From positions 124,001-188,000 of the forward strand of contig ML996692.1 of the NCBI GenBank assembly GCA_010356995.1: a stretch of DNA of 64,000 nucleotides, written 5' to 3'. Source of the stretch: Trichodelitschia bisporula (taxonomy: Eukaryota > Ascomycota > Dothideomycetes > Phaeotrichales > Phaeotrichaceae). The notes under the pieces are model-generated. The model did not search any database. It saw nothing but the letters and a program-made list of their open reading frames with translations, and was not told where the DNA came from. Numbering within the stretch: the stretch's first letter is position 1; each line of letters opens with the position of its first letter. Shown here piece after piece: positions 18,296-41,035 of the stretch. Both the position numbers and the translations under genes were made by a program.

Positions 18296-21200
18296 TCAAT
18301 GCGCATCCGACGCATTGTGCACCTCACTCAACGTACTCGGTACATAACGACTCGGGGTGCTCACCCGACTAGCCTTCCCCTCCTTCTCCCTCATGCGCGC
18401 AGCAAAACTCAACCGCTCTGAATGCGTCCTCCCCACTCCCGCACTCGGGCCTCCAACTTGCACCCTCCCCTCATCGCCCGGCAACATCGCGCTGGGCGGA
18501 ACAGGCACCCTCTCACTCGCCCCAGCAGCCGACTCCTCATACACACTCGTAAAACTCGTAGCCGCAGTCCTCGCGCCGGGCCGTTGTCTTCCATCGCCCT
18601 TCACCCACGGCGCCCTGGGGTGCGCCATCTTCTCCAGCTGTGCATCCACAACCTCAGCATACGTCCGGGCCGGTGCGGCAACCGCATTGCGCACGTCCGG
18701 CGGAATCGGCACGTCCAACGTCGGCACCCCGTACGACTCATACCGCGCCTTGCCCACCCACAGCATCTGCTCGTGCTCGCGCAAGTAGCGCTCACCACTG
18801 AAAGACGTTTGCACGATCTCGCGCGCCATCATGCCTAACGCACGGCGCTGATCCGTCTTCGCATACATCCGCGTCGTGATGATGTCCACGTCTTTGCGGG
18901 TGGGGTTGATAGGCAGGACCGGAGCGGGATCGCCGGGTTCGTCGTTGGCGTATTTGGACCATTGGCCGAGCATGGCGAGGAGATTGATTTGCGCGCGTGC
19001 GAGGCTGAGCGGGTCGTTCGGTGCGACGATCTCGCTGTATCGCTCGTTGCTCTCTGGATGCGTCAAGACGCGCAGGGAGGCGCCGACGTCGGTACAGACG
19101 ACGGGTGCTCCCGTGAGGGCGGCTTCGCCAAGCGCCAGTGGCAACCCTTCGGACACGGAAGAGTTGAGAAAGAGCCATGTCTTGGAGAGCACGACACCTG
19201 GATCGCCTGACCCGCGCAGCGTAACGTTTGGCGCAAGACCCTTGGTCGCGATGATTTCTTGGCATTCCGACGAGTAGATGGGTGCCTTGTTGAGTGCGCC
19301 GTAGATGTCGAGATGGTATTCGTCGAAGCCCCATTGGTTGACGATGACGTCGGCAGCGAGGAGCGCTGTCTTGATATCCTTTGCAAACCACACGTGCGAA
19401 AGCATAGTGACGGTGGGCTTGGTTGTCGTGATTTTCGTGACAGGCGCAAACTTTTGCATGTCCGTGATGCCGTTGACCACGGGGTCGATCTTCCGCTTGA
19501 AGACATTGCGATGCTCCACGGTCCCTTGCGATGTACCGATTTCGGTTTCCCAGCCGGGGTTGAAGAAGTCGGCGCCTGAGTGTTTAGCACAAAACTGATA
19601 TTAGGAACAGAGAGAACCTACATGGCAAGATATGGTCCGCATGGTGTAGTGTCAGCATCGAAGTCAACCGCATCAAGCCGAGCAGCGAGTTCCGGATGAA
19701 GGGCGGGAGGGTGCAAAGCGCTGACGACAGGTACAGATTCGTCTCGCGCCAACTGATTGCATGGTCCCAGATCTGGAGCACGCAATTGCGCTTAATCTTG
19801 CAGACAATACCATACGCGGCCGAGACGCTGTGGTGAGAGGCCTGGAAAACGGCAGGGACCCGCTCGGGAATGGGGATTGAAAAGATGAAGAGATACCGGA
19901 ACCACAGCTCGAGCGCGGAGTCGAGATGGCCAAGTGTAGGCCTCTCCGTGTCAAACCACTCTGACGGCGGCTTCGTGTTGGGGATGTCGTCCGCGAGCCA
20001 GAGTTGCCGCCAGCTCTCCTTGACCGTGTCGCTTTCCCACACCTCCTTCCAGTGGCGCGAGTCTTGGAAGTAGGTGTTGAGATTGACCAAGGCGCGGGTA
20101 GCTTGCTTGACATCCGCGTCGGAGAGCGTGATTGCACGAGCGCCCTTGACCAGTGCCGTCAGGGTGGGGACAAAGTTACGCTTGATGTCCTCACGCGTCG
20201 CATCCTTGATGAGATGGTCGACTTCGCTGTCCAACTTGTTGAAGAACATGCCGTGGACGGGGTGCATGAAGTCGAGACCCCATAGCGGAATAACCTTGAG
20301 CGACTCGACATTTTCCTGCGTCTGGTGCTTGGGCAACCCGAAGTCATTTGCCGACTCCACGACCATGTTCCACCGGATGGTGCGCAGATTGTTGATCAAG
20401 TCTCGACGGCAGGCCGACACACCACCGCCCTCGTTAGGCCAGGTACCAGTGTCAACGGCGATGACGTGGAGAGTGTCCTCGGTATCTGGCTGCAGCATCT
20501 TTGTGCGAGTGTAGACGACTGCATCACCACCTTGACCGAAGCTGAAGAGATCGCTGAGACGAATGGCGAGCGGAGTCCACGCAGAAATATCGTTAGACAG
20601 CTCAGAGCTGGCCATGATGGTATCTGCATGAAGCGCAAGGTAGTCCTCGGCTTTATCCAGCGCGCCGCGGTCCCGCTTCCTCCAGTATGGCTTGAGCATC
20701 GAATCTTCGCGGAGCAGACGCTCATCAAGCCAGCGAATGACCACACCATCAATGTCTGCTCGCTTCTTCCAAATCTTCCACAGCTGCGAGCGCTTCTGCG
20801 AAGTTGACGAGGGGAGCACCTTGGCATTATACCGAAACAGTTGGCTGAAGTAGCCGGTCTTGATCGAGGGGAAGCTAAGCAAAGGGTTGTCGATGAGAAA
20901 GGTGCAGCCGTCGGGCTTTTTGAGAAGGCCGAGCCAGTCATGTCGAATCATCTCTGGAGTCTCGACCTGCACCCCGTTGAGCTTGGTCTGGATCACGGGA
21001 TGGTACTGATGGTTGTAGACCCAAAGACACTCGTACACATCCGAGTTCTGGACGAACGTAGCTTCTTGAACACGGGAGTGAGGAATCCACCGCTCTGGCT
21101 TCTCGGGATGCCGAATGGGAGGTGCCGCCCACGAGACGTTAGCGGAGAGATGCGGCAATACGAATTCGGCCCGCAGGAGCTCGTCGTCGTATTTTGCATT

Positions 21201-24200
21201 TTTCCGGTAATGGTACTTGAAGCGGACCAGGTTACCATGACGTGTGTAGCACCCAGACTCCACAAAGCCCTTGTGGTTGTACTGAAAAATGGCGTCCTTG
21301 TCAAAGCCGCGGGTGCACGTCCGAGAAAGTGGAATCCGCGTGACCTCATGTTTCGACAGCTTGGACTTGCGAGTTTTGGCGTTCTCCGAGTACTTGTAGA
21401 CAAACTCGTTAAGCGGTCTGCCGTCCTCAAACTCTTCTCTGGCCATCAGACGCATGTCCTTAGAGTAGGTGTTGACAGCGAGCACCTGCCCGTCCCGCGG
21501 CTCCTTTTCGTGGATTCCAGAGTAGTAAAACAGCTTGAACGAGCCCTCGCCTCCCTGGTGTATGAATGCTGTCATGTTCCCTTGGTAGGCTTGAATCGTG
21601 AGCCTGCCTTGCTTGAGCGTGATAAACTTGCCACGCAAGCTTTTCCACGTCTTCGCAAGGTCGGCGCGGCCTTTGAAAATGAACCAGGGCAAGATGATGG
21701 ATTGGACATGACGTGAGTATATCCAGATAAACGGCAGCACATATCTGGAGATGCGAGTGAGTGGACCAGACCGCTGAATCACGCAGTTGAGCTCGCGCTG
21801 ATATTCGGGATCAGCAATTGGCGCAATGGCAAGAAACTTGACCCAGATGAGGAGACTCCGTTGAACCATCCCAAGTGGAACTTTGATCTTGTCGAAAACG
21901 CGGCCGAAGAATGCCTTTTCGGTCACGATGTTGTGTTTCTCCTTCAGCCACTGAAAATCTTCCTGGACATCCGTGATGATGCTCTTCTCGTGGTTGAGTT
22001 TAGCCGACTGCTTGCGGAAGTAGTTGAACTTGTGCACTGCTAGGATTGCTCCGAGGTCGTATCGGGCGGTACGGGTCTCAAGTGCGCACCCAGCTTCCCC
22101 ACTCAGCTGTTCTTCCAGCCAGTTCCATTCTATATCGCCAATGGAGCATGGCTCGCCCAGTGCGCGCCTCAAAATCAGTCGCCGAATCTCTAGCGGCATC
22201 AAGTGCCATGTCGTGTCGCAGGGTAGCCCGTAGCAGAGGTACCGGAGGAGCTCACGCCTTGTCTGTGTCAAGAAGGCTTGCTTCTTCTGGACCGTCACCA
22301 CAGCAGGAAGGGCTCGTCGGAGTCGCTCTGGAACTCGAGTAATCTCCTCGTTGACGAAACGGCAGACAAGCAGCGACTCCGAGATCAGCGCGTGTTCATG
22401 ATTGAGCCCGAAGAACGCCTCCCCAACGGCATGGATCAGGGTTTCGGCAATGACGCGACAGTTACTGCCAATATTTGGCTGATCTTCGGTTGAATTGTCC
22501 GAGTCGGGATCGACGAGGATGTGCAGTCTTCCACCGGAATAGTAGCTGATGGCCCGGACATCGGCCTCGGCAGGAATGACTGCGCGCATTGAGGCCAGCT
22601 CCACCACGATCAAACCCCTGTCCCAAGCCAGCACGACCCTTCGCGCCAGATCGGTGACTGCAGGGAAGGCATCCAGTGCGAGTGCCGAAAGCGTGTCCTC
22701 ATTGCAAGAAAGCAGCAGCGATTTGATTTCCGTCCCTGGATGTTCATGAGGGCTGATCGTGAACCGCTTCTCGTGGAGAGTAGTAATCCCCACATAAAAG
22801 GCCTCAAGTTCACTCTGGCTCCACTGCTGGTCAATACCGAGGCCGCAGTACGCATGATATACACTTTGGGACTTCTTCTCCTCGAGAGACTCCTTGGGGG
22901 GGATAGTAATCTTGGCAGTGAAGAGCGAAAGAACGGCTGCGGTCCAAGTTGCCACTGCAAGCGCGACGACTTCGTTGTATGCCCAGCCAGGGTTCACCTT
23001 CTTGAGGATCAGCCCGAGGGGGAGCGCGAGAAGAACGGCAGTAAGGAGCGGCATCATGGCATGCGGGCCTGAGAAGATCTTGTTGTACTGGTAGAGCAAA
23101 AGACCCGAGTAGGCACCGATGTACGCGATGAAAGTGATGAAGGCGGTCCTGTTGCTGTCAAACACCCAAACCAGTGCCGAGCAAAGTGCGAGGGCCCACA
23201 CATGCACGCCGAGGAAACGGAAAAGAGTTCGCCAGTAGAGACGGCGTTTGATCTTCGCGTCGTGAATTTCTGCTGCCCGGATGTACTCCTTTGATTGGAT
23301 AGTGATGGGTGTCGACTCTTGAGCCAGCTGGTGGAGATGCTGCGCCTTGTAGTCGAGCAAGACCGCGCCGATGAGGTAGTAGGCTAGCCCAAAGCCAACT
23401 GCCACCCGGACCGCAGCACCGCAACGTGGACTGGACGTTCCATCGAGGATGTTCTGGTCTGCATTAACTCCGCAATCACCAGCTGTGAGACCGAGAAGTG
23501 GAGTCTTGTAAACCAGCCCGACCCAGCGGTCCATGAGGGCAACCAGAAAGTAGAGGATACCGCAGCCAACCTCGTCGCCGGCATTACGCCAATGGATAAA
23601 GGAGTTATGCAGCCTTATTCCCTTTTGATTTTGCATCAAACTGTCATAGGCCACTCGCACTTCGATGTTCCACGTGGAGCTGTAGGGCATGGGCCTCCTG
23701 ACGTCGGAGAGCCGGCAGTACCAGTTGAGTAAAAAGACTGTAGCATCCCAGCTTTTTGTGAGTTTCTGGACCATCTCGTCTTCCCTGGACTTCCTCCAAA
23801 ATGGCCGCTTGCGTTCCTTCTCGACCGCGTTCGCCAGGTTTTGGCGGGCAAGGCTCATGGCGGCGGGATCAGTCAATCCGTCGAAGGCATTAGGCCTGCC
23901 ATCGGCCATATTGTCAACGTACCACTTCTTGACCGCAGCGTCGTCGACAGTGTATACTTCGGAAAGCCACGTTACCCACCATGACCCAACCGAACGGAGG
24001 CCAATGAAGAGGAGCCCAATGAAGGCATAGAGTATGACAAGGTAGATAACTGTGTCATGCCCTTTGACAAATACAGTCACAAGAGGTGAGGCCAAAAGAG
24101 TGGGGATGAGGCCGATGATGATGGTTCTGCCGTTGAGAAATGAAGAGCCCGGAAACTGGTATGAGGAAAGTGCGGCGAGGACGGAGAGGTATGAAGTGAG

Positions 24201-27200
24201 GGCGATAAGGTAGAAAAAGAAGACCACTCCAGCGCGAAAGTTTTCTTTGGCTGTAAGCCCGATGAGACCGAGGAGACCGACCAGAACCGTAAAGGCAAGT
24301 CCACCAACCAGTCGCGTGAGAATGAACATATTCGCGGCTGAAAAGGCCATGGAAATCAAGTAGTACGTCCCGCCTATTGAGATCCATGTGCCGATGGCGC
24401 CGGAAAGCAGAAGAGATACCATCAACGCCAAAGTGGCGTTCTTGCTGTCATCGATGGACATGCTGCCACTGAGATAGAGCCCGCGTTTTATTGTTGTTAA
24501 GAGAATAATGTCCACGAGTGCTGGGATCGCAAAAACACTGAGGAAGGTAAATTTTCTGTACCCCGGCATCACACTTTCTTCTTGTTCCGGGTCGATGTCC
24601 GTCTGCGCCGCAGCATATGCAGATGCAAAAGCTGGGGCGTTATTGATCCACATCGGAGGTTGATTCTCCGGCAAAGTGTAGAATGCACGATGTCGATCCG
24701 ACAAGAGCTTGCCAAAAGAGCTCGGCGACACGTCAAAGTATGCCTCGCATCTCGATCCGAGTGCAAACAACTCCGCAAAAGCGGCACTCTGGTCCGAAAA
24801 TTCGTTGAACAGGGGATTGCGGTCCTGGACTTCGACATACACTTCTTCAAACGCGGCCTTCCGGGCGGCACAAAATAGGGAGAAGAGCAAGATGTCCACA
24901 TAGGGATCGATGCGGGGTTGGCCATCTGGACCGGCTTGCGCAACCACGATGCTTTCAATAACATTCGTGATTATGTCAAGGTCATCGTAGTGCCTGTTGT
25001 GGAGGATGTCTCGAAAGGCGAAGTGAACATCTGTAAAAATCTCTTGTGCAGTCATGACGTCCAGCTGCTCGAATCCATGTTGGCGGTACCACTTGACTCG
25101 CGATGCGACGAGGTCCTCTGTTGAAATGGAGTCTCTTAGGTACTCCACATTACCGTATTGCTTGAGCTGCTCAAAGGTCGGGGTCTCCAGCAGGATCTCC
25201 TCGCACCGGGTTTTGATTTTGTTGAGCAGTGGACAGCGCTCGTTCCATGTCGAAAACTTGTACTGCTGGAGGAAGAGAAGCACATCTGTTGGAGACAACA
25301 GGTCGAGGTCTTGATTCAAGCGTACGGGTAGCGTATCTTGGAGCCAAGGTGGCGCCGAACACTTGTGGAAATCCAGCTCCACCAGGAGGCAATGGTAACG
25401 AGAAACTGAGCGGTAGCTGAGGTAGGTGTGCATGACTGTGGATGCCATATCCTGTGTGTTTTTGGAGACGTAGATGCAAAGCCCACCGGTCCGGCGGTCA
25501 ATCTCGAAAACTGACCAGAACTGCGAAGACGCAGATCCGTGGAATCCAGAATCGATACCCTTGTATATCTGAATAGGATCACTGGACTGATCTAGGTCCG
25601 ACGCTTTGTTGAGGAGTTCAACAAGGTCCCGCAAAATGCGAACTGCAGTTGCTGGGCTATTGCTAGCGGCATGGGAAGCGAGATACCGTTGTATCGGAAT
25701 AGCCATATTCCGAACATCGGCAGGAGACAGTTGGATGAGCAAGCCGAGTCTTCGGAGACGCCGCTGAGATTTGACCACTTCTGCAAAGGCAGTGTCCGTG
25801 ATGTGTAGGCCAACGGGGAAGCATCCAAGCCCGGTGTAATTTGCGCCGGTGAGTGAAATGGAAAGGGGATCAAGCCCTGACTTGCTGATGCCCGCGACCC
25901 ACTCCACACCATTTCGGTTCTCTGCGAGAGTTCCATTCTCCGATCGCAGATGCAAGGAGTCGATCATGTGGTGTTCCTGCCCCTGCAAGGTGAAGGTGGT
26001 CGAAATGGAACTTGTGCCCGAGTCTCGTTCAAGAGCACCGAGTATGTATCGGATGCTCGGCAGGATGCATTCGATGGCCTCGAAGTCTTTGACATATGGT
26101 GGGTGGTTCAAGCTGATTTGGTGATTGAGCCGGTACGCTTCGTGGATCTTCATGACCCGCTGATCCTTGAGCCATTGGAACGCTGCCAGGGGCTCGAGAA
26201 CAGGCATGTTATCCTCCGCGCTCATCACAGACGCCTCCGAGCCAATCCAGACCAGTGCACCATGGTAACCACACCATGCATAACTCCGCTTCACGACCGC
26301 ATGCGACACCTCTATGCGATCATCTACCGTATCCCAGATCATTGTGGTGAACGGCCGCAGACAGGCTTGCGATACGAAGGCCCGAGTCGTCGACTTCAAC
26401 TTCTCCATCTGAAAGAAGTCTCTAGCCTGGCCATTGGGCAGGATAGTGCCGTTTCGGATGAGCATGCCAGCAAAGAGACCGAGGTCGGGCATCTTCACAT
26501 CCTCCAGAAAATGAGGTGGAACGACTTCCAAGTAAACATCGAAGCCAAGTTCGCTGAGGTACTTGGCAAGAGAGTTGAGGACCGGGGCGGGGAGGTTCCG
26601 CCAGCCGGCAAGAAGGAGCCCGGTAAATGCCCTTTGCGCTCCGGGATGCCGAAAGAGAGTGTCAATAGCTCCGAGAATCCTTTCCAGTGATCGCAGCATC
26701 TTGGAGTCGCTTCCAGCCGACTCCGAGCTAACCAGCTGGTAGAGATCCAGCCTGCCGACGACATGTGGTGAGAGATTCTGGTCAGGGTCGGACAGTGCAT
26801 CCAGCACACCGGCCTGTGAAGGGTCGAGGACAATGAGATCATAGCGGCTGAGAAGTCTGGTCTCGTCATAGTTGGGTGGATAGTGAATGGTTCCGAGGTA
26901 TACCCCAAAGGAAGTGGGTTTGGAAAGAACCTTTCCGAGCGCGCTGAACGCGATGTCGCTCTCGGTGAAATGGAGGCGGAGGCGCTTTGCTATTCGTCGT
27001 GAGATCTTCGAGTGATCTGTTTTTCTCTGCGGGATATCAACATGCGCCCATCTGCTAAGGAGGGGTAGACGGACTTGCAAGAAGCTTCGAACCAGCTTCA
27101 CCAGGAACCACGCAACGGCCACCCCACCCACAACTCCACTGGCGGCGATGACTGATATCAGCGCCCATTGCCACCAGTCTCTAGCCACCACGCCATCCGC

Positions 27201-27230
27201 AAATGGTTTGATGTCCAAAACTTCCGCCAT
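18296..27230 (-). CDS. gtb3: Giant multi-pass GT4 glycosyltransferase, galactosaminogalactan synthase
   Basis: Exons 19622-27230 and 18296-19575 (46-nt intron) give 2,962 residues. An N-terminal membrane helix (about 19-45) is followed by a region with barrel-like strand motifs (FGVYLG, YDLIVLDPSQ, FTGLLLAGW, FDVYLEVVP; ~100-330). Two blocks of membrane helices (about 885-1095 and 1275-1440) make a dozen or so spans. A Tyr/Gly-rich repeat-like stretch lies near 1870-2010. A GT4 module is at the C terminus: VDTGTWPNEGGGVSACRRDL (~2260) recalls the PelF-type N-lobe, HHADHILPCADFFNPGWE spans the intron, and EGLPLALGEAALTGAPVV (~2675) is the GT4 E-x7-E motif. In Aspergillus the orthologue (Gtb3/Gt4c) is required for GAG; polymerisation plus export by one polypeptide is inferred. 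It is divergent from agd3. Confidence 0.93.
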
Positions 27231-29224
27231 ACAGAGCTTCCAGCACCGGCATCGGGTACTGGTGAAGCAGAGAACAAAGGGGTACTCCGCTATTAGAAAT
27301 TAAGACCTGCGGACGGTGGGGCGGTTGTAGAGGAAAAGCGACATGCAGAGAGACTTCGCGGAAGGCATAGTGACGGTGCTTAGCACCTTGAGAAGCTCAC
27401 TCAGCAAAAGGGACGGGATAGAGGGGCGTAGAAACGAGCGGCGGCAAGATCCAGTGTGTGCACAAAGTCTCCACGTGCGTTAGATACTCGTGTGGGGAGC
27501 AGCACGACAGGTCGGCCAGGTCAAGGCCGTGAAAGTGCAATGGGTCAGCTGTCGGCAAAGGAAACACTGTTGGCAAGAATTACGATCTCAATCGGGGAAA
27601 CTGGACGCCATGGGTACCGCGGCCAGCACCACGCACCATCTCTACCTGTGGCAGACTGCAGAAAGCGTGTAGTCCCAGAGAGTAGGGAGCGGCTCTTTAG
27701 CGCGGTCTCCCACAATAGAACGCTGGGGACGCGCACCAGCGGAGAAGGCGTAATTGCAGCCATGGTGTGCTTGCGAGCCTGGTGACTGGGGCGAAATGGG
27801 AGGATCCTCGGTCCTTGACACACATATTGGAGAGTTAAAGGCGGAGGGCGGGGACCGTAGAAGAACTCCCATAAAGGCGAAACGGGCAGTCTTGGATGGT
27901 GTGGTGGGATATAGACCGAATTGACATGGGAATTTGGGAGATTTTGATGAGGTTGAAGTGGTGAGGTTCAATCCGCAAGGTTGAGGTGCGTCAGCCACAG
28001 AGCGGGTGCAGGGGTCAGGGTTCCCCAGTGGGGGTGCCCTTTCGCTTGGCCGCGGGGGAAGAAGGCAGACGTCTACTGCGTACATACCAGGCGCCCAGAG
28101 ACTCGGAGAAACCGTACCAGTGGGATTTTTTGACAGGAGAAATGCGGTTGAAGCAGCAAAAGTACGATAAGGCATCGCTAAACACTGGAGAGGACTCGAA
28201 GGCCCCCGATGTTCGAGAGCAGTTAATATCAGGCTGTTCCCCTTCCCCCACACTTGCACGCCCCGCCATAACTTCAAGACAAACGTGTCCCCCCCCTCCC
28301 ACTATGCAAGTACCACTGTACAATGTACACTTTGCATTCGTATACTGCGCATTGTATACTGTACACAGCCGGCCCTTCTGATCAGAGTGAGGAGTAAGTG
28401 AAGGTGAGTGAAGGTGAGGATAAAGAGCAGGGATGCCCCACATCATAACCAAAAGCTCGGACCGCGGGGTCGTCATCACTTTGGTACGACTGACTGCGAT
28501 TGACGGGCTGCGACTGCCATTGACCACCCACCCACTGCCACTCAACATCGTGCCGCGTTAATGAGGCCGAGACGAGTCTACCATGCCACTCTTTTCCCCC
28601 TTCCAAGCACACCCGTCAGCAACCTCCCACACCTAACGCCCACCACTCTGCCGTGACCACTATTCCTTCTCGCCCGGACGGCCACTTTGCATGATGCTTA
28701 CACCTCGGTCAAGGACGCGTGCCTGGCAATTGCACAGAAATGAATTCCCCCATGTCAACCTGGCAAGCTCCAATTCCGGGGCCACGGTGCTCTGGGTTCG
28801 TACGGCACACCCGCAAAATCCCATCCTCTTTCCAATCTTTCATACTTAGCATCACCGGCGCCGCTACACGCCTACGAAAATTCCGGGTCCCTTGCTTTAC
28901 GACGAGATCACGTTCAGCAACTCTCTTTTGCCCCAGGTTTGGAGGAGGTTATGTCAGTTGCGTAGGTGAAGGTTCGTAGACTGCCGCTCCTAAGAATCTC
29001 GGCGAAGTCTTGTCTAACGAGATCAAAGGCTTCTTAAGAAAAGGTGTGCAGAGCGGAGAATGAAAAAGGTGCCACCGGCAACTTCGCGGCCTCGAATCTC
29101 AACTCCTGCTGACATCCAGAGCAGACGATCTCCACTGCATGACCTCTTGACCCAACTGGCTATTGGCGGCGCTTCGTCTCCACTCAACACTCGTTTACAA
29201 AATTGCGCGTTCCCCGTCCGGAAG
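27231..29224. promoter_or_regulatory. 2.0-kb divergent promoter, gtb3 / agd3
   Basis: The start codons of the polymerase and deacetylase genes face away from each other across this region, and no gene is visible inside it. It holds one StuA-type element (28715-28722) and a cluster of GTATAC/TGTACA motifs (28315-28366) with a near-repeat of GCATT.GTATACTG. Aspergillus GAG genes are controlled by MedA and StuA; control here is inferred from cluster identity and the site. Confidence 0.65.
28715..28722. promoter_or_regulatory. Candidate StuA response element
   Basis: ACGCGTGC fits the published StuA consensus (A/T)CGCG(T/A)N(A/C), and because ACGCGT is palindromic the reverse strand (ACGCGTCC) fits too. 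It lies 503 bp upstream of the agd3 ATG. A single match by consensus only. Confidence 0.4.
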
Positions 29225-31722
29225 ATGGCACGAACGCTCCTGTCATTATTGCGCTTGCGCTTTTTCATCTTCGCCGCAATCCTTCTCCCGCTGGTCTCGG
29301 CAGCACTCACTACGAAATCAACTGTTCTTATAATAGCTCGCGACGATGCGTCCGCTAGATCTGCGCACTCTGGTCTCCAAGGTTACGGAATCCCTTACCG
29401 TGTTCTTTTGGTCCCGCAAACCGGAGCGCCGTTGCCACCTCTGAGCTCCGGGCCGACTTCGGGTAACTTCGGTGGTATCGTCGTTCTCAGCGACGTTTCG
29501 TATAACTATGGGACACCTCCGAATCCGTACCGCAGTGCCTTGACGGACGCGCAATGGACGCAATTGTATGAGTACCAAAAGACGTTCAAGGTTCGCATGA
29601 CCCGGATTGATGTGTATCCTGAAGTTCAGTTTGGTATGTGACTCTTTCATCGCATATAACATTTGCTGACCAAGAAAGGCACTTTGCCCGTCCTTAACGG
29701 AACCGGTTGCTGTAATCCCGGTCAAGAACAGCTTGTGAGCATTTCTAACTCATCCGCATTCCGCACCGCGAACATCAAGACGGGCGCTGGTGTCAGTACG
29801 CAAGGTCTGTGGCACGTGCCTGGAAAGGTGGTTGATCCTGCCACGACATGGGAAATTGCGACCTTTGAGCCGGCCGAGCAGTTCACGGAGAGGACCACTG
29901 CGGGTGTTATCAATATTCAGCCGGATGGTCGGGAGCAGATGGTGTTTTTCCTGGGTTGGGCTTCCGATTGGTCGTCTGCTTCCAGTTATCTGCAGCACGC
30001 CTGGATCCACTGGATGACCCGTGGTCTCTGTAAGTTGACGATCGTATATGGGATTCCATGTCTAATGCAAGCTCCAGATGTCGGCTTCCGGAGAATCTAC
30101 TTCAATACGCAGGGTAGGGATTGGACACCTGAATGAAGGACCTTAGCTGATAACGTACAGTGGATGACATGTTTCTGGTCACTGATCTTTATCAGGTATG
30201 TGGCTTTGCTGCATGACCCAAATCTCGGGTTTGCTAACCCAATCTTAGCCTCAAGGGTCGACCTTCCGTATCCGTCCAGCCGATATGGAACACCATATCA
30301 CTTGGCAAAAGTCCATCAATGCCCGCCTGCCCAAGGGTTCCCAATATGTGATGGAGATTGGTCACAATGGAAACGGAGACATCGAAGTAAGATGTTCGTG
30401 CCACGTGACTGACATCGACTGACCTTCCTTAGGCTGCTGTTTCCCTTGCAACCAATGGCCAGTGCAATCCGGTCGAAGCCATTGAGTACCCCGAGCAGAT
30501 TGATACCGCCCTGGAGTTTACCAAAACCCCTGGAAGCGGTGCCGATGTCTGGCCCGGTGCTCCGGTCGTCTACCAGTGGAACTATGCATGTGAGAACCTG
30601 GACCCCCTTTTCCGCTGGTTCCGCAACCCTGCCAAGCGCGATGCCTTTATGCATCTGTCTCATACCTTCACCCACGAGGCTCTGAATAACGCCACGTACA
30701 ACGACTGCTCCAAGGAGATTTCCTTCAACAAGGTTTGGCTCCAGCACTCCAGCATCTCCGCCGCCAAGTGGTTCTCGCCTAATGGATTGATTCCGCCTGC
30801 CATTACTGGCATGCACAATGCCGACGCAATCAAGGCCTGGCTGGACAATGGCATCAAGTATGTGGTTGGCGACAACACACGTAAAGTCTTGATGAACCCG
30901 GTATGAGTATTAGCACAATCTCTGACCTAAGCTGACATGAAGTAGCATAATCCGTATTGGCCTCTGATCTCAAGTGTCGCAAGTAACGGCTATGCCGGTG
31001 TGGTCATCGTGCCTCGGTGGGCGACAACCATCTACTACAATTGTGATCTGCCTGACTGCACGCTCCAGGAGTGGATCAACACGTCCGGTGGTTCCGGCGA
31101 CTTCCAGCATCTGCTCGACGACGCTCGCAACACGAACAGCAGGCATCTTCTCACTCTCCACTGGGATCCGTAAGCTGCCAATATTACCGCTTTTGCAACG
31201 CTGACGCAGCTAGTTTCATGTTTCATCAGGCCAACTTGCGCCAGGCCGATGTTCCGGCCGTTCCCATCAACGGTGTCATGCAGAAGCTGTCGCTTATCCA
31301 GATCTGGACCGAGGTCGTACTCCAGGAGATGGTTCGCTTGTAGGTGACCCCGGCTTAGACACTATGTCATACTATCCCCGATATCATTACTGACACCTAT
31401 TCCCAGGACGGATTGGCCAATCATCACGAAGAAACATGATGACACGGCAAAGGCTTTTCTCGACCGTATGGCGCGCGATCAGTGTAGCCCGACGCTCAAC
31501 TGGAATTACGCCAACGATGGCAAGAGCATCGTCAGCGTCACCGTTAACACGGTGACGAGCAACAAGTGCAGCGTGCCCATCCCCATTACGTTCCCAACCA
31601 ACATACGGTCCATCCCGTCGGGGGCAACGCGGGAGCAGGTGGGCTCAGATCCACTTACTCTTTGGGTCAAGCTCAACGGCCAACCGATCACCGTTCAACT
31701 CAGCCAACCGCTGAAGCTGTAA
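29225..31722 (+). CDS. agd3: Secreted exopolysaccharide (GalNAc) deacetylase, CE18 family
   Basis: Nine exons: 29225-29633, 29679-30029, 30078-30113, 30161-30195, 30249-30386, 30433-30900, 30946-31169, 31214-31339 and 31407-31722. They encode 700 residues; every junction keeps frame. The start at 29225 is chosen because it opens a signal peptide (MARTLLSLLRLRFFIFAAIL, cleavage near VSA). The N-terminal third (VLIIARDDASARSAHSGLQG, GIVVLSDVSYNYG) fits the region before and around the CBM87 domain of Agd3. The catalytic part has a metal-site HxxxH motif (HLSHTFTHE, His400 and His404) and a candidate metal Asp in VTDLYQPQ (Asp274). In Aspergillus Agd3 partly deacetylates GAG, which makes the polymer cationic and adhesive. 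Two of the exons are only 36 and 35 nt. The gene sits between gtb3 and ega3. Confidence 0.94.
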
Positions 31723-33140
31723 AGAGTACGGAGAACATTGATGGCGTTGTGTAGAGCTAAGCCTTTCTTTTGCACTGTTGCATTTGGTTTACACGCGGCG
31801 TAGTGGGTGAAAAACTATCGTCACCTTTCATTGCATTTTTGGTCTTTTTACCGCTTTCTCTGCAACGTGCAGATAAACTGCACAAAGTGTGGATATCCGG
31901 GGAAGGGAGGAGCCGAGCTCAGGGCTGCAGCGGCCGGCCCGATATTGTGCATATTTTGATGAGGCCGTTGGACTCGTCAGAGAAAAAGGGCTATTGGGAG
32001 TTTAATGCCACGTTCAAGGCCGGGGCTAGCTGGCAACTCGCCAGGATCGCCAGTCTTAAGTAAATATAGTATGCTATACACTGGTAGATCAGTCTTTCTC
32101 GAACCTCTGCATTGTCCATGGTGAGAACTACACTAGCGGGGCTGCTTTTGCGGGGACTGCACACTCATTTACGGCATATGACGTGAACAACGAAAAAATA
32201 TTCACGAAGCCGAAACGAGAATGAAGAAAAGGCCTCAGTAGATCTGCCTCTTCTGTCACCGACCCAAGTGACGCCGATCTCAAAACTTCGGTCCCCGCAT
32301 CTGCACTCGCGCCATATATTGCCCACGCCCCGCCCTACGCAAGAAGCGCATCACCTGCCCCCCAACGCAAGTACCTTCCCCATGAGCAGGGTAGCACATA
32401 TACCTGGGACAGTGAGCAGGGCGCTAGGGTGCTGAAACGAGGAAAGTGGAAACCTGCGCAAAGTGCGGCAGTCGGGGGGTGGGCCAATCAAACCCCGGCT
32501 GGGCGGACGCTTCAGCCTCGCGTGCAATCTCGCGCCTGAGTGCTCGTTAAGCCGGCGAAGATGGCAGGCAAGCTCGCGCACAGCCACAGGTGCTTTGGGA
32601 AGGCTAGGGACAGGTGGTGCTTTGGGGCAGGTGGGCTACTTTGGGGCATTTGGGCTGTGGGGGAGGAGGCGGGCGTACATACTTGAGGGCTGCGCCAAGC
32701 GTGGGAATCTGACTGCGGCGAAGGTCGGTCTTTTACCTATCTTACTGAGTTGCGGAGCCGTTCACGGAGGGTGAGACGAGATTCTTCTCCTGGATTGCAA
32801 CTTCATTGCAGCTACTCGCTTCAGAGACATAGGAGAGGGAAACTCCCAGGTTGCTGCTGCTGCCGCTGCCGTCACCGTTACTGAAGGACCGGATCCCGCG
32901 ATCCAGCTCCTGATCGCCCAGATTCCCGCTGCAATCTTTGCGAATCAATGAGCACTTGGCAAACACTACGGGACTGAACCGCCCAGCCCCGCTCACGACG
33001 TCGCAGCGTGGACACGCCGCCGAGGCCACTGCGACCGCCGCCGTACCGCCATCACCACTCCCGTATTCACCAACACAGCAACACAACATCAGACAAGCAC
33101 GGCGCCGTCGCCACATACACACCCCACCGCGCCCACCGCC
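31723..33140. other. 1.4-kb intergenic region between agd3 and ega3
   Basis: This is the only promoter region for ega3. A G-rich stretch (about 32595-32680) has repeated CTTTGGGGCA-like units. From about 32990 to 33140 the plus strand is C/A-rich, typical of a fungal 5' leader. No gene is supported. Confidence 0.5.
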
Positions 33141-34195
33141 ATGGACGCCAGCCCGCGGGGCCTCACCGGCCCGCGTCGCTGGTCCTGGAAATCGATATCC
33201 CCAAAAGCGCGCTGGACCATCATCGCCATCGTCAGCGCCTTCGTGATCCTCGCACTCGGCCTGGGGCTCGGCCTCGGCCTCACTCTCGGCGGGGGCAACG
33301 ACGCCGAAGGCGACCTAAGCAACGCAGCGCCGCTCGCACCACCACCCGCCGACTTGCAAATCTGGAAGCCGTCCGTCAACGCAACCTGGCAGATCGTGTT
33401 GCTGAAGCCGCTAGCGCTGGCGCCGGACGCGAACTCGGTGGAGCCGGATGTGGATGTCTACGACATTGATTTGTTTATCAATCCGAAGAGTACGGTGGAT
33501 GCGCTGCATCGGCTTGGGAAGAGGGTGGTTTGTTATTTTAGTGGGGGGAGCTATGAGCCCAACCGGCCTGATTCGAAGAGTTTTAAGGATTCGGATAAGG
33601 GGAAGGGGTTGGAGGGGTGGCCGGGGGAGCGGTGGTTGAATTTGAATAGTGAGGGTGTGAGGCAGATTATGGCGAAGCGGATTCAGTTGGCGGCGCAGAA
33701 GGGGTGCGATGCTATTGATCCGGACAATGTGGATGGCTTTGTACGTACCGATCCTGAGCTGCCTGATACGAGACTGACGAGATGCAGGATAACAAGAACG
33801 GGTTGGGTCTCACGCAAGCGGATTCAATCCGCTTCATGTCGTACTTGGTGCAGCAAGCGCAGAAGCACAACATGGCCATCGGCCTCAAGAACGCAGCGAA
33901 GATCATCCCTTCGGTGCTGCCTGCCATGCAGTTCTCCGTCAACGAGCAGTGCGTGCAGTATGCGGACTGCCGCAGCTTTGCGCCCTTCGTTGAAGCCGGG
34001 AAACCCGTCTTCCACATCGAGTACCCCTCCGAAGTCAAGCCGGACTTTGCGGCAAACTTTTGCAACAAAGACTTCAAGCCCGCGCAGGGCTCGGATGGCT
34101 TCTCGACTGTCATCAAGAACATGAACCTCGACGGCTGGGTCGTGTATTGCAACGGACAGACGGCGAGAACACCTTTGGCCGACGGAGACCGCTAG
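33141..34195 (+). CDS. ega3: Membrane-anchored endo-alpha-1,4-galactosaminidase, GH114 family
   Basis: Exons 33141-33740 and 33788-34195 (47-nt intron) give 335 residues. A short cytosolic tail is followed by a signal-anchor helix (about residues 27-50, with a GLGLGLGL run), so a type II membrane protein with the enzyme outside the cell is expected. The GH114 TIM barrel starts at WKPSVNATWQIVLLKPL. It includes DVDVYDIDLF, RVVCYFSGGSYEPNRPD and the acidic motif CDAIDPDNVDGF (Asp193, Asp195). It continues with IGLKNAAKIIP and then MQFSVNEQC, whose Glu253 is the likely second catalytic residue, and HIEYPSE. In Aspergillus, Ega3 cuts the GalN-containing parts of GAG. It could trim nascent polymer or allow detachment; which one is not shown by sequence. 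Confidence 0.94.
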
Positions 34196-37100
34196 CAGGT
34201 TTTGCTCGCATTCGGACTTAGATTTGTTTATTCTGCCTCATTTTGAATGTCTCGTTCGGCGCTGGGTAAAGGGATTGCAGTCTTGGGATAGCGATGTGCA
34301 TACTCTGGAGTTTCGAGATTCTCTAGAGAAGTGAGCTTGGATTTTTTTTTTGCCATCAAAGCTGCAACCAGCCTTACCTAATTATTGTGGTGCTGCGAAG
34401 GTCATAAGACTTTGATGTGTGCAAGTGCCACCCAACCACGATCGGACCTAGATCCCGCCTTAGCCATCTCGGATCTTTGCGCTTGAAACAAGCAAGTGCG
34501 TCTTCCATTTTGCTTCTTCGCCTTCCGACGGGAGATCCGAAGGACAGCAAATTTTTGACAAGGGAACGACCCCCCTCTACACCCCCGATCTCGGTGGGAG
34601 ACTCAGTTTAAGCGAGAATAGAGCTTCTAGAGAAAGGCATATGAGCGCTAGAAGAAAAATGTTCGATAAAGATTAGTTCAGGCATCTAGAAGAGCCCAGA
34701 CTTCACGATGTATCCCATGCGGAGAGATCATCACCATCAGCGATCCTCGGGTGGATCTCCATCCCCAGATCCTCATTGCTTCTAGAAGCTCAAATCCGAT
34801 TCGCACGGCATGTCCGCGCGCCCATCTTACACGATCACGACTTAGTTGGGCCACAGTTATACTGTACTGTATACTGGGCCAGGGCAGATATGGCAAGGTT
34901 CAACCCGAGAGGAGCATGGCATTAGGCAAGAGCAGCCAAATTACTCGCCAGAGCCTGGGCGTGTGGGGTCCCCTTGGGGAAGAGGGGCGCAAAGACCAAC
35001 AGAATCTCCACGGGAGCGCTGTATCCAGGAACAAGTGTAGGCCAGTCCTTGCAAGGCTGCGCAGCACGGTCGGCGCCTTAATTCTAGAAAACATGGGATT
35101 TAATGGTGAACGCGCGTTGCCTTTGCACGGACGTAGGGCCTCGTTTGAGCACGAGAGAAGGTGAGAAATTCTAAGGAGGCGGCATTGGCGTTCTCTTGTG
35201 CATCATATGAGCACTGCGTTTGTGCCTAACTAGCAAATTGGCGGGGGCGGATAGCGTCGCTATGCAGCGGTAGAGCGTCGGACGTCCTACCACTGTGCTA
35301 TTAACATAGCGCGGAAGTTCATGGAACGGGAACGGTTCGCACGATCATTCGTGCAGAAATGCCGTACAACGGTGATCATAGGCACCAATATAACCCTACG
35401 TCAGTGCTACAGGCCCGCAAACTATTCCAACGATTACATGAGCAAAAGCGGCTCTGAAATGTGGGGTGGCCGTAAGCATCCCAGAAATCCCCAGAAAGCG
35501 GAAGACGGGGTCTCGGCTTCTGCAAGGGTGGGGTAACAGCACCTTCAGCCGCGAGCCTCGGGACGCCGCTGCCGCCGCTAACTTGCTCGTTAACCCTCTT
35601 AGGCGCAGGATCAGTTGGGTTAGTACGTGGCAGGGCCGGTGATTACGCGCGGTCTCCAGGTCAACATTTGGGAGGGAAGACCAGCGACTCCGTCTCATGA
35701 ATGGTTGGCCGCGTGAGTAACACGAGGAATACTGGGTCAGAGTCGGTGAGGCCCAACCGTCCGATATCTCGGCGGACGTCGTCGGAAGGGAACAAATGGA
35801 GCAGTACACGGCTTCCCGTGCCGTTTCTGGAGGAACGAAGCTCCCAGGACATCGGGCATCGTCGCGGTCCTGAATCCCGACCACCGATGTGCCCCAAGCT
35901 CATTGAAAGTGATGGCAAACTAGTGATGATGATCGAACATGCGGAGACAGCAGAGGCCATGAAGTGAGCAATGTGCACTTCGGCCGGGGCCATGACTCGT
36001 CGGATAGAATCAATGTCGTCACCCGGGCTCTGCAAAGGGACAGAGAGGCGGCATTCGTCCAATGCCGTACTCAGGTTGCATTCCTCGGGAGTTCGAGCGA
36101 AAGTCCTCCAAAGAATCAGAAAAGATGGCCCAAAGAAGACAGCACGGTGAACTTGGCATCAATCTAATCGTGACGCCGAGAGCGAGATCTACCAATCTCG
36201 ATGCAACCGCATGCCACATCCTGACGAACATCCAAGGCTGACACGAGTCGAATCCCCGGTACGGACGGTAACGAGCGCAAATAAGGCGAAGAGAAGACGG
36301 AAAAACTTCGCAATAGTGCTGGAAGATGGCGGAGGATGGAGATGACATTTCGGCCGTGCTTGATGTGAGGTTGGAAGACTCCGAGCTCGGCCGAACAGAA
36401 CTTCCGGCCCGAACTTGCATCCACCAATCACAGCCCGGTAATTTCTGTACAAGGGAAGGCGTAGCCTTTTCTGCCCGCTTTTCATCCTTCCTAGCATTCC
36501 ACCCCCCAGTCTCGAGCCCAGCCTTGACCCCCACGATCACTCCATCATTGCAGCACGCCTCGTATGCCTCACCCCGCCATTGTCGTCAGCCACTCTACAA
36601 GCTGCCCCCACATACAGCAGCCAAGTTCATACTCGAGCTTGGCCGCCGCCCAACAGCTTCTAAATTTACCTCCCCCGCCATTCAGTCTCTCTGGGCGCAC
36701 CCAAAATCTGGGTTGCCGAGCTTTTAGCAGCCGTAATGTTGCGTGTGTGTGTGGGCCTCGTGGGCTGCAAAATACAAGCCTACCGAGGCCATGCAGCGGC
36801 CCAAAAAAAGAGTCTAGGCCTTGGTCGCTTTCTACCCCTCCGCACCCTCGTCTCGAAGCGGACACGCATGGGGGAAGGTGACGTGGAATCCTATCCACGA
36901 TCTATCGCATGGCCCGGTTCGTCGACCACGCGCCGCGCTCTCACCAAGTCCCCCAAGCCGCCGCGACATCCATCCCAGTCCTAAGAGCCGCCCGCCGCGA
37001 GCCGGCAGACAAGCCACCCGGGAGGCTAAACGACAAGCTCGGCAGACCATTTCGAGGCTTCGGCAGACCCATTGAGGCTTCGTTCCTCATCCATTCCTTC

Positions 37101-37844
37101 TATGCCGTAAGCGGGTATGCCCGCGCGGGGCCACTCCACCCGCCCTGGACTCGACGATCAGCGGCAGGCTCCGCTTGCGCAGGAACGCGCCTCCAGGCTG
37201 CAGACAGCCTCGCGCACACACTGTACTACCGTACACGAGGAGCTCGCGTCATCCCCCCGCAAGCAGCGAGATGCCCCTGCCCTACCCGCCAGAGTGGCCG
37301 CACCCGTGCCTCGCCTACCCACTACCCCCCACCCCCCCTTCCCCTTCTTCCGCTGCCCCACCTCCCGCCGCCCCAAGTTCCGTCCGATGATGTGCGTTGG
37401 CGGGCGCATGAGATCAGCGGAAGCGAACCCACAGCTCTACAGGAGACAGCGCCATGATGCACAGCCGACAACCCTTGAATTACTGGTGGGCGTTAAGCTC
37501 GATGACGGACGCCAACGAAAGGCAATGAGGACGCACCGTTTCTTTCCGGCTTTTGCCCCTCGCGCTTGGCTACGTCCGCGTGAACACGAGGATGTGAAAG
37601 TGGGCAGGCTGAAGGGTGAGTGGAACACGCAAGTTCTGGACCCAATGCCGCCATGCGCGACATACGAAGATAGGCGCAAATGACGAGAGAGCAGATGATA
37701 CAGTTGAAATTTTGTCTCGTGCAGAGCAAAATGCTCAGCAAAATTCTACACACGCAACCCCAAACCCCAAACATGCCCTTCCCCTGCCAGCTAGCCAGCT
37801 CACCTTCCCAACCGCCACTACTCCGCTAGCCGCCCCCCACTCCG
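34196..37844. other. 3.6-kb gene-free gap within the GAG cluster
   Basis: This is the longest gap in the window. It separates the 3' ends of ega3 and sph3, which converge. Open frames here (up to 188 codons) lack domains, overlap one another on both strands, and I recognise none of them. A tandem ~21-bp imperfect repeat is present (37039-37079). Nothing marks a transposon. Confidence 0.5.
37039..37079. repeat. Imperfect tandem repeat, ~21 bp x 2
   Basis: TCGGCAGACCATTTCGAGGCT is followed directly by TCGGCAGACCCATTGAGGCT, differing by a small indel and one substitution. Confidence 0.7.
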
Positions 37845-39001
37845 CTAAATCATGGCATCGATGAAGTCCTTGAACCGAGGACTAAAGCGATTGTAGTAAT
37901 TTTCCGACAAATCCGTAAGAAACAAGCTGCCCGCAAGCTCGCGCAGCTCCGCCACCAGAGTCTTGAGCTGCGGCATTTCCATGCTACTGGGAATTGAGTG
38001 CATGAGGCAGACAAGCATCTCGCGATCAGGAAGCGCCGCGAGCGATTTGGCTGCCTGGCGGTTGATGTACGTCTGGTACTGTTCCTCAAACACCACGGTC
38101 CGATCGGTGGTCCCCAGAATCCGAGATTCCGGTATGCTCCCTGGATTCATAACTGTGAATTCGGGCCATGTCAGCAAAGGATCTCTGCCATAGAGCACGT
38201 TGCGCGTTGACGAGCTCATGGCCAAACAAGGCTGGGGAAAGGCAAATCCTGCCGTATGCGGCAGGGGTTTGCCCCGGGATAAGGAATTGCGGAGCCAATG
38301 AGGAAGCAGAGACCAGAAAACACATACCGATAGATCCCGATGCTAGACCATTGGTACTTCTGATCCTGCTCTTGACATCGGCGAGAAAAGTAGTATTGTG
38401 GTCGTCCGCGAGCTGCGGCGACTCGTCCAGGAAGATTCCCTGCATAGCAAGCTTGGGGTTCTTCTGGCTCCATGTGGCGTACTGGGCAATGTCGCTGTAC
38501 GCGGCATCGATGCTGCGTCGGCCATAATCAATGGCGACGTACCCGACGGTCCTCACATTGGAGTACGAGTTGAGTCTCGGAATCTCTCTCGTGTAATTCG
38601 CATCGGGCAGTGGCGCGGCACCCGGTCCGCTTGCTGGGTTTATTACGATGGTAAAGTCTAACGATGGGTGTGACTGGATGCTGTGACCGACGCGCGGAAT
38701 CAGTAAGGCTTTGTGTGCGCAGGGGTGCTTAGATTGCGGGGATGGGGGGATATTGATAGAAATATGATCCTTACACAGCGTAGAGGGGGTCCCATGCTCC
38801 TCGAACGGGATAAATGTAGAGTGGTATTAACACTCCAGACCTCGGCGCCATCGCTTGCGCTGGATTGCCGGAGCCAGCAGTGACGGGGGTGGTGAAAAGG
38901 CAGATACTTGCAAGGAGGAGCGTGAACAGCGTCCACCTCCGGCAGGCGATAGGCTTTGTGAACCAATTTAGAGCATTGCCCATTTGGTAGGATGATAGCA
39001 A
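37845..39001 (-). CDS. sph3: Spherulin-4-like GAG glycoside hydrolase, GH135 family
   Basis: Exons 38775-39001, 38328-38680 and 37845-38152 give 295 residues. An N-terminal hydrophobic segment (RRWTLFTLLLASICLF, about 20-38) is a signal or signal anchor. The TIM barrel begins SGVLIPLYIYPVRGAWDPLY and includes FTIVINPASGPG, VGYVAIDYGRR and GIFLDESPQ; Asp161-Glu162 match the GH135 catalytic acids, and VVFEEQY (Glu216/217) the third. In Aspergillus, Sph3 hydrolyses GAG and is needed for its production. Intron 2 is long (175 nt); its chosen acceptor (TTCACAG, 38153) follows a perfect CTGAC branch site. A weaker acceptor 30 nt earlier would add ten residues. An ATG six codons downstream (38983) could also be the start. 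Divergent from uge3. Confidence 0.93.
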
Positions 39002-39619
39002 TGCAAAAGGGAAGAAATAGGGGGAGAAAGCTTAGGTTGACTGGGCGCCAAAACAGGAATCTCGGGGATGCATTGACCGGGAAGAGGTGAGGAAGAGAGC
39101 GAATGTCGGGGGGAAGGGGATGGAAGAGCAACAAAACAGAAAGAAGGTGTCTGAAGGGTAGAAAGGGAAGGACTGGAAACGGTAGTAGTGATGTAAACTG
39201 CTGCTGTGGGTCGTCAGCACTTCAATCTAATATTGGGATTTGCAAAATGACAGCTGGTTTGCGAGTGTGCCAAGTGACAAGGCTCCATGATCCGGACGAA
39301 GAGACAAAGTACTTCGCAGGGATGGCCTCGTGGAAGGGTTTCCGCTGGATCAGTCGGTCGGCCAGTTGACAGGAGGAGGCACGCCATCGGCTGCGCGAGA
39401 ATAAATCGAAGCCGACCGGACGGTCAATTTTTGATGGCCATTCCGCAGGCATCACGGGAGTCCCAGTTTCATCTAAATCGTGGCAAGACTCTCCACCCTC
39501 CTACTTTATAAGAGTTTCGAGTGTGTCGCATATCGTTGGGGATAAACCGCCAGCGCTAACACCATCTCAATTCTTTCGTTGTTCGTTTCCTTTGCCGTCA
39601 TCTCGTGCTTCCATTCGTT
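39002..39619. promoter_or_regulatory. 618-bp divergent promoter, sph3 / uge3
   Basis: The sph3 and uge3 start codons face away from each other across 618 bp with no gene between. A TATA-like TTTATAAG lies about 110 bp upstream of the uge3 ATG, followed by a C/T-rich leader. Shared control of the hydrolase and the precursor epimerase is inferred. Confidence 0.7.
39505..39512 (+). promoter_or_regulatory. TATA-like box of uge3
   Basis: TTTATAAG stands alone in a GC-balanced region ~108 bp before the uge3 start codon and is followed by a pyrimidine-rich stretch, the usual layout of a fungal core promoter. Confidence 0.5.
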
Positions 39620-41035
39620 ATGAGCACTCGTTCAGATTCGGGGATGTCATCCCCTTCACTCTTTTCGTCCATTTCGCGCTCGAGCAGCACATTTAACGTC
39701 GCCGCGGCCGACTCCGTCAGCACCCCCGGCACCGATTCTTCCATTCTTTTTGACGATGCCACCGTCGAGCCGCTGGACATCTCGAGCAATGGCGAGTCGT
39801 ATATCATGGTGGTCGGCGGGGCCGGCTACATCGGCAGCCACACAACGCTCGAGCTCATGAAGGAGGGGTTCAACGTTGTAGTTGTCGACGATCTGAGCAA
39901 CGCGTACCGCGACGTCCTCGATCGTGTCGAGTTCCTGGCCGCCGAGCACCGCATCGCGATCGGGGAGACCGTACCGACGCTCAAGTTCCACGAAGCCGAC
40001 TACAAGAGCCCAGTGATGCGGTCGATCCTGGATCTGTACGCTCTCAAGGGGGCCGAGCTCGGCACCCAGGGCGCAGCCGTCTCACGTATCCGGGGTGTCA
40101 TCCACTTTGCCGCGTTCAAGGCCGTCGAAGATTCCATCAACAACCCGATCCCGTACTACCAGAACAACGTGTGCGGAATGGTCAACTTCCTGGCGCTGTT
40201 GCAGGAGTTCGGGATCATGAACTTCGTATTCTCTTCCTCGGCCACCGTGTACGGCTCGCGTGCAAACCAGGGCCACCCGTTACGCGAAGAACATTGCGTA
40301 CACGAGCACGAGACGTTTGTGGATGACGATGGGGTGGAAAAGCAGGCGGAGCCGGGCGTCTTCGGTCTGACGTCGCCATACGGTCGGACAAAGTGGATGT
40401 GCGAGGCCATCCTCGCCGATGTCGCCAAGTCTGATCCGCGTTGGACCATCACCGCCCTGCGGTACTTCAACCCAGTCGGCTGCCACGAATCCGGTCTGCT
40501 CGGCGAGGATCCCAGGCAAAAGCCGACCAATCTCGTGCCCGTTGTGTTGCGCGTCCTCACGGGCGCCAATCCGGTGCTCAACATCTTCGGCACCGATTGG
40601 GACACGCCCGATGGTACTGCCATTCGCGATTTCATCCACGTTGTCGACCTCGCCCGCGGCCACATTGCCGCTCTCGATGCCGCCGCCAAAGGTCGTGTTC
40701 GGCACGCATTCCGGGCCTACAACCTGGGCACTGGTACCGGCCACACCGTCCGCGAAGTCGTCGAAAGCATCGAGAAAGCCTCGCAACGCACCATCCCCGT
40801 TGCGGAAGTCGGAAGGCGCCCCGGAGATGTCGGCTTCTGCGTCGCTGGTGTCAATCGTGCTGAGAAGGAGCTCGGATGGAAAACGGTCAAGACGATGCAA
40901 GACTGCTCGACCGACGTTTGGAACTTCACCGCAAGGTCTCGCGGTGTGAACAGCAGCACGCCGAAAAAGACCCTCCCCACGCAGCCCGAGTTCGCTCAGC
41001 AAGAACTTCCCATCGAGAACGCGGTGATGGTATAA
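39620..41035 (+). CDS. uge3: UDP-glucose/UDP-GlcNAc 4-epimerase (GAG precursor supply)
   Basis: A single exon of 471 residues. A Ser/Thr-rich tail of ~60 residues, absent from housekeeping GalE, precedes an extended SDR fold: the NAD-binding GGAGYIGSHT (Gly66-Gly72), VIHFAAFKAVEDSI, the Ser of FSSSATVYGS and the catalytic YxxxK in SPYGRTK (Tyr254, Lys258). RYFNPVG, DGTAIRDFIHVVDLA and the C-terminal substrate lobe (PGDVGFCVAGVNRAEKELGW) follow. Family knowledge: it interconverts UDP-Glc/UDP-Gal, and Aspergillus Uge3 also makes UDP-GalNAc for GAG. Preference for GalNAc is inferred from the cluster and cannot be read from a motif. The first ATG of the frame is used; the upstream in-frame GTG is ignored. 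Confidence 0.95.
   Translation: MSTRSDSGMSSPSLFSSISRSSSTFNVAAADSVSTPGTDSSILFDDATVEPLDISSNGESYIMVVGGAGYIGSHTTLELMKEGFNVVVVDDLSNAYRDVLDRVEFLAAEHRIAIGETVPTLKFHEADYKSPVMRSILDLYALKGAELGTQGAAVSRIRGVIHFAAFKAVEDSINNPIPYYQNNVCGMVNFLALLQEFGIMNFVFSSSATVYGSRANQGHPLREEHCVHEHETFVDDDGVEKQAEPGVFGLTSPYGRTKWMCEAILADVAKSDPRWTITALRYFNPVGCHESGLLGEDPRQKPTNLVPVVLRVLTGANPVLNIFGTDWDTPDGTAIRDFIHVVDLARGHIAALDAAAKGRVRHAFRAYNLGTGTGHTVREVVESIEKASQRTIPVAEVGRRPGDVGFCVAGVNRAEKELGWKTVKTMQDCSTDVWNFTARSRGVNSSTPKKTLPTQPEFAQQELPIENAVMV

Follow-up and report, generated by a model that had tools for sequence, protein, structure and literature searches.

A predicted galactosaminogalactan gene cluster in Trichodelitschia bisporula and the relationship of its polymerase to bacterial PelF

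Introduction

Filamentous fungi build the polymer galactosaminogalactan (GAG) with the products of a gene cluster. In the published model, as laid out in PMC4817252, an epimerase is followed by a polymerase/exporter and the chain is then deacetylated outside the cell. Two hydrolases complete the set: Sph3, which acts as an endo-N-acetylgalactosaminidase, and Ega3, whose specificity is for deacetylated regions (PMC7229062). According to genetic studies, deletion of cluster genes in Aspergillus fumigatus, A. oryzae, Metarhizium and Verticillium abolishes or alters GAG.

Lee et al. (2016) describe the cluster in 28 species among more than 250 genomes, all of them Pezizomycotina except one basidiomycete. 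By their selection rule, a locus had to combine a glycosyltransferase, an epimerase and a deacetylase with one or both of the hydrolases. In A. fumigatus the genes are numbered 3G07860 (gtb3), 3G07890 (ega3), 3G07900 (sph3) and 3G07910 (uge3) (PMC4817252 for all of these points). Two papers suggest that the fungal gene set came from bacteria (PMC4817252, PMC7229062), and operons of this kind in bacteria, encoding a membrane protein along with a glycosyltransferase located in the cytoplasm, have already been reported (PMC7229062).

Here we analyse a window of 64 kb from Trichodelitschia bisporula (G+C content 55.7%, free of N). It holds what is almost certainly, judging from the encoded proteins, an orthologous GAG biosynthetic cluster of a filamentous fungus. 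The locus is a sound instance of a kind of cluster already published. We also find that the glycosyltransferase domain of its polymerase resembles that of the bacterial Pel synthase, and we ask how far the likeness extends to bacterial loci that carry a homologue of the deacetylase.

Results

Five intact genes in the Aspergillus order

The five genes span 18296-41035, a block of 22.7 kb, in the order gtb3 (minus strand), agd3 (plus), ega3 (plus), sph3 (minus) and uge3 (plus). Its edges are exact: the gtb3 stop codon, on the minus strand, ends at 18296, and the uge3 stop codon ends at 41035. After splicing, each of the five models runs from an ATG to a stop codon with no stop in between. The products are 2962 (Gtb3), 700 (Agd3), 335 (Ega3), 289 (Sph3) and 471 (Uge3) amino acids long, 4757 sense codons in all. 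There are eight introns in agd3, two in sph3, one each in ega3 and gtb3 and none in uge3; eleven of the twelve measure 44-94 nt, the exception being the longer second intron of sph3. Splice joins are consensus GT...AG sites picked with the aid of homology, and the intron scan had a limit of 130 nt.

Each product belongs to the expected family. The strength of the five matches (E-values of 4.1e-239 for Agd3, 5.3e-91 for Ega3, 1e-70 for Sph3, 1.7e-84 for Uge3 and 7.4e-14 for the GT4 domain of Gtb3) excludes chance resemblance. A glycosyltransferase, an epimerase, a deacetylase and both hydrolases thus stand at one locus, the combination that the rule of Lee et al. describes (PMC4817252).

The sequence-only reading had proposed a complete five-gene GAG cluster, with the strand pattern minus, plus, plus, minus, plus and an Aspergillus-like gene order. 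The families and the frames bear out the first point, and the strands within the window are as it described. The gene order, too, is the one given by the locus numbers of A. fumigatus quoted above, in which agd3 presumably has the number 3G07870. With that number assumed, the A. fumigatus cluster has the same five families in the same order as the window. Published work on Metarhizium robertsii and Verticillium dahliae reports the same five genes as well; in M. robertsii their order and orientation differ from those of A. fumigatus, whereas the window has the Aspergillus order. The protein searches that the same reading had proposed as a check matched Agd3, Ega3 and Sph3 to solved Aspergillus enzymes over their domains. 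No product fell in an unrelated family, and the frames of agd3, ega3 and sph3 are unbroken.

Epimerase, deacetylase and hydrolases

uge3 (39620..41035, plus strand) is a single exon encoding a UDP-glucose/UDP-GlcNAc 4-epimerase with an N-terminal extension of about 60 residues. It is an epimerase of the GalE type, matching GalE structures in the PDB at up to 1.7e-84 and the NCBIfam galE model at 316.3 bits (cut-off 262.3). S207, Y254 and K258 are present and C407 aligns with a cysteine of 3enk; we take the first three to have their usual roles and the position of C407 to decide on N-acetylated substrates. The sequence of Uge3 suggests that it can supply UDP-Gal as well as UDP-GalNAc. The claim that the five genes encode every known step stands as far as their presence goes. 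Its wording is slightly too strong because in A. fumigatus a second epimerase, Uge5, shares the UDP-galactose supply.

agd3 (29225..31722, plus strand) encodes, in nine exons separated by eight introns of 44-67 nt, a CE18 deacetylase with a CBM87 domain. At E 0.001 it matches a single PDB entry, that of the deacetylase Agd3 itself (6nwz; 4.1e-239, aa 30-699). The Pfam domains CBM87_Agd3, Agd3_CE and Agd3_C score 304, 592.7 and 76.6 bits against cut-offs of 27.5-27.6. The active-site set is kept: D267, D268, H400, H404, R503, M556 and H558 are the published D377, D378, H510, H514, R613, M666 and H668 minus 110, seven out of seven. Since this offset is constant at 110, the N-terminus seems to be about 110 residues shorter than that of A. 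fumigatus Agd3. M666 of the published protein is described as highly conserved; when the protein is aligned to four homologues from bacteria, every residue of the set except M556 (six of seven) is invariant.

ega3 (33141..34195, plus strand; intron 33741-33787) encodes a GH114 endo-alpha-1,4-galactosaminidase. It matches 6ojb and 6oj1 at about 5e-91, with identity at 148 of 269 aligned residues, and fills the whole Pfam Glyco_hydro_114 profile (PF03537, positions 1-231 of 231; 4.8e-85, 284.9 bits, cut-off 27). D195 and E253 align with the verified D189 and E247, a single offset fitting both. A hydrophobic segment lies near the N-terminus (aa 27-45).

sph3 (37845..38983, minus strand) encodes a GH135 (spherulin-4) endo-alpha-1,4-N-acetylgalactosaminidase with a hydrophobic segment at aa 19-37. 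Its introns lie at 38681-38774 and, probably, 38153-38327. The latter, at 175 nt, exceeds the 130-nt limit of the scan and was chosen by homology: with it the protein matches 5d6t in one stretch (1e-70; identity at 115 of 246 aligned residues) and a 32-residue insert is gone. The 79-nt candidate at 38249-38327 was rejected; it is in frame, yet it adds those 32 residues and splits the 5d6t match (1.7e-66). The Pfam Spherulin4 profile (PF12138) is covered from 2 to 239 of 239 (6.6e-76, 255.4 bits, cut-off 30.2). The aligned acidic residues D155, E156 and E210 are kept, and the catalytic residues are presumably among these three; the numbering in the literature, Asp196/Glu222, differs. That the catalytic motifs of the locus are intact, as had been claimed, is seen in the seven residues of Agd3, in D195/E253 of Ega3 and in these acidic residues of Sph3. 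The same Agd3 and Ega3 active-site residues occur in the A. fumigatus enzymes. Identity is only 55% between Ega3 and its A. fumigatus counterpart and 47% between Sph3 and the solved Sph3, so the window does not come from an A. fumigatus strain.

The polymerase/exporter

gtb3 (18296..27230, minus strand) encodes the putative GAG polymerase/exporter in two exons, 19622-27230 and 18296-19575, separated by a 46-nt intron (19576-19621). This splice is supported because the alignment to PelF described below crosses the junction with a one-residue gap. A simple hydropathy count finds 11 hydrophobic segments: one at aa 24-42, six within 896-1078 and four within 1274-1439. The Gtb of V. dahliae, at 2856 residues, is likewise reported to have 11 segments. 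A C-terminal GT4 domain occupies about aa 2250-2740 (Pfam glycosyltransferase group 1, 7.4e-14).

The rest of the protein matches little. The first exon (aa 1 to about 2536, with at most 12 residues read from the intron) has no significant match in the PDB, NCBIfam or plasmids, and its two Pfam matches, DUF3492 (E 0.011) and DUF4079 (E 0.95), fall short of the cut-off. No family model scores above its cut-off between aa 43 and about 2250, so the export role proposed for Gtb3 is drawn from its hydropathy and from the published model. A GH114/TM1410-like barrel at the N-terminus was considered and is unsupported, the non-glycosyltransferase pieces reaching at most 1.1% probability in profile comparison; this test compared a single Gtb3 sequence with operon proteins from bacteria, GH114 and TM1410-like ones included, and is a weak negative. 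An alignment-free AlphaFold model of aa 43-450 had a mean pLDDT of 34.3 and was discarded.

Spacers and flanking genes

The intergenic spacers along the cluster measure 2.0, 1.4, 3.6 and 0.6 kb. The longest, between ega3 and sph3 (34196..37844, 3.65 kb), appears gene-free by Pfam and by ORF and codon score: six ORFs tested there drew no match from Pfam at E 0.1, and no ORF of at least 100 amino acids with a positive codon score is listed, under a score that took this spacer as background. The codon score is weak and partly circular, having been trained on the cluster genes with the spacers as background. In the 64-kb window there are no Rfam matches at gathering threshold and no tRNA.

The upstream neighbours of the cluster are an enoyl-CoA hydratase-like gene, an SH3-SAM-PH protein and an ORF whose MIZ/SP-RING match is under the Pfam cut-off; downstream are a Kelch-BTB protein, PGAP1, a dual-specificity-phosphatase-like (DSP-like) ORF and a palmitoyl thioesterase. 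No known sugar-polymer gene is among those named here. The MIZ/SP-RING ORF is long (2-3832, minus strand) and contains a 27-nt/81-nt tandem repeat at 1352-1555. Two adjacent ORFs at 12998-14458 (plus strand) have a coding-like codon score and no Pfam match, and the same holds for a 650-residue ORF at 56645-58594 (minus strand), whose codon score is good. The PGAP1/GPI inositol-deacylase ORF at 49558-51450 (minus strand), 8.5 kb past uge3, matches 8k9q at 878 bits and likely has a further N-terminal exon upstream. The DSP-like ORF at 54738-55664 (plus strand), under the Pfam cut-off, reads YCDTGNDLA at the position of the phosphatase signature HCxxGxxR; going by this motif, it is perhaps an inactive phosphatase.

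A PelF-like glycosyltransferase domain

For the spliced glycosyltransferase segment of Gtb3, the best NCBIfam model is that of bacterial PelF (NF038011; 72.9 bits, 2.7e-20), and the next GT4 model scores 32 bits. The PelF score is below the model's 100-bit cut-off, and the match covers positions 281-463 of 489 in the profile. The segment also falls below the cut-off of Pfam DUF3492 (20.2 bits against 23.3). Compared with three bacterial PelF proteins by hhalign, it aligns at 99% probability over 431 columns, PelF positions 8-444 of 486. The alignment thus covers nearly the whole of PelF, beyond the half that is common to GT4 enzymes. The PelF-like region comprises 18785-19575 and 19622-20513 on the minus strand, aa 2240-2800 of Gtb3. 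The probability is at most 1.1% when the remaining Gtb3 pieces are compared with PelF, or any of the pieces with six further sets of operon proteins. On these profile comparisons we regard the Gtb3 glycosyltransferase domain as a distant relative of bacterial PelF. A partial literature search found no explicit sequence link between Gtb3 and PelF; we do not claim that it is unpublished.

Bacterial loci with an Agd3 homologue

Agd3 matched 8 plasmid records. Against genome contigs, the single Agd3 sequence yielded six pattern matches, none of them confirmed as a relative, and a five-row Agd3 alignment yielded 156 confirmed relatives. We picked 84 loci for their Agd3 homologue: four of the 8 plasmid matches and the best 80 of the 156. 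All 80 contig loci were reached via one motif around the catalytic histidine, which makes for a biased and redundant sample; Streptomyces accounts for 49 of the 80. Among the Agd3-like proteins from bacteria that were scanned, L001 and L002 are under the Pfam Agd3_CE cut-off, and L002 is under that of CBM87 too.

A PelF-like ORF is present in 64 of the 84 loci, or in 61 of 81 when the three loci used to build the model are left aside. For 61 of these 64, no more than 1 kb separates the PelF-like from the Agd3-like ORF when both are taken from stop to stop, a measure that overstates closeness. Used alone, the Gtb3 glycosyltransferase segment picks 63 ORFs among the 84 loci, and every one is the same PelF-like ORF. 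GH114-like ORFs occur in 46 loci and spherulin-4-like ORFs in 47, by search models that contained the window proteins and up to three of the 84 loci themselves. Loci without PelF count against a fixed pairing of Agd3 with PelF: among the 57 loci in which over 5 kb flanks the Agd3-like ORF on each side, 13 lack a PelF-like ORF, and one of the four plasmid loci, L003, has no PelF-like gene.

Three plasmids, one of Kocuria rosea and the others of two Deinococcus strains, carry GAG-like operons (L002, 11689-18394; L001, 3404-15604; L004, 5549-14560). These have Agd3-like, PelF and GH114 genes, with spherulin-4 in addition in Kocuria rosea, where the operon lies between two transposase genes that share one protein accession. 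In these operons and in others of the sample a CE18-like deacetylase, a GT4 polymerase, GH114 and often GH135 are adjacent, as in the fungus. The bacterial operons encode the PelF glycosyltransferase and a membrane protein separately, whereas the fungus has one protein of 2962 residues. In three bacterial loci the membrane protein adjoining PelF has no Pfam or NCBIfam name and does not match the membrane part of Gtb3, and four pieces of Gtb3 (aa 43-2230) have no match in the 84 loci.

Discussion

Every protein of the published GAG model has a counterpart in the window, and by analogy with the published orthologues the locus would work as follows. Uge3 would supply UDP-Gal and UDP-GalNAc, which the GT4 domain of Gtb3 would polymerise on the cytosolic side, the chain leaving through the membrane part of the same protein. 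Secreted Agd3 would then strip part of the acetyl groups, giving a cationic polymer that adheres to hyphae and surfaces. Outside the cell Sph3 and Ega3, both probably membrane-anchored, would cleave acetylated and deacetylated stretches, respectively.

Does the cluster make GAG, or anything at all? A complete-looking cluster could be silent or partly decayed, unexpressed and without polymer, which would be compatible with its orthologue status, and the length of the ega3-sph3 spacer could be read in that way. Against this, all five frames are open across the 4757 sense codons, and the active sites have been kept while Ega3 and Sph3 diverged to the identities given above. Divergence with intact active sites speaks for selection, and we consider silence or decay very improbable. 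Somewhat less improbable, though still unlikely, is that the product is a different alpha-1,4 polymer, for example a near-pure GalNAc/GalN chain like Pel, in place of a galactose-containing GAG. This alternative differs from the GAG explanation solely in sugar composition. Pel is an alpha-1,4 polymer of GalNAc and GalN (PMC9135694), and the kinship of the Gtb3 domain with PelF, distant as it is, would fit such a product. Sugar choice is not readable from sequence, however, and the five orthologues match the fungal GAG set. C407 of Uge3, in the role that we assume for it, also fits the making of both UDP-Gal and UDP-GalNAc. We keep to the reading of the locus as a GAG cluster.

How does this cluster relate to the bacterial loci? 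One hypothesis places the fungal GAG machinery, as a eukaryotic branch, within a bacterial Agd3-PelF-GH114-GH135 system. On this view Gtb3 would be a glycosyltransferase of the PelF type that has become fused to its own membrane exporter, and GAG and Pel would have their synthase ancestry in common as well as their chemistry. We put the chances of this hypothesis at about even.

As a clean example of a published cluster, the locus predicts an adhesive, cationic coat in the host fungus; its expression, polymer production and any part in virulence would follow the orthologues. The point of wider use is the link between Gtb3 and PelF alone. If it is true, work on the Pel synthase, which is better known, gives access to the least understood GAG protein, and the bacteria-to-fungi origin suggested in PMC4817252 and PMC7229062 becomes testable on the polymerase too.
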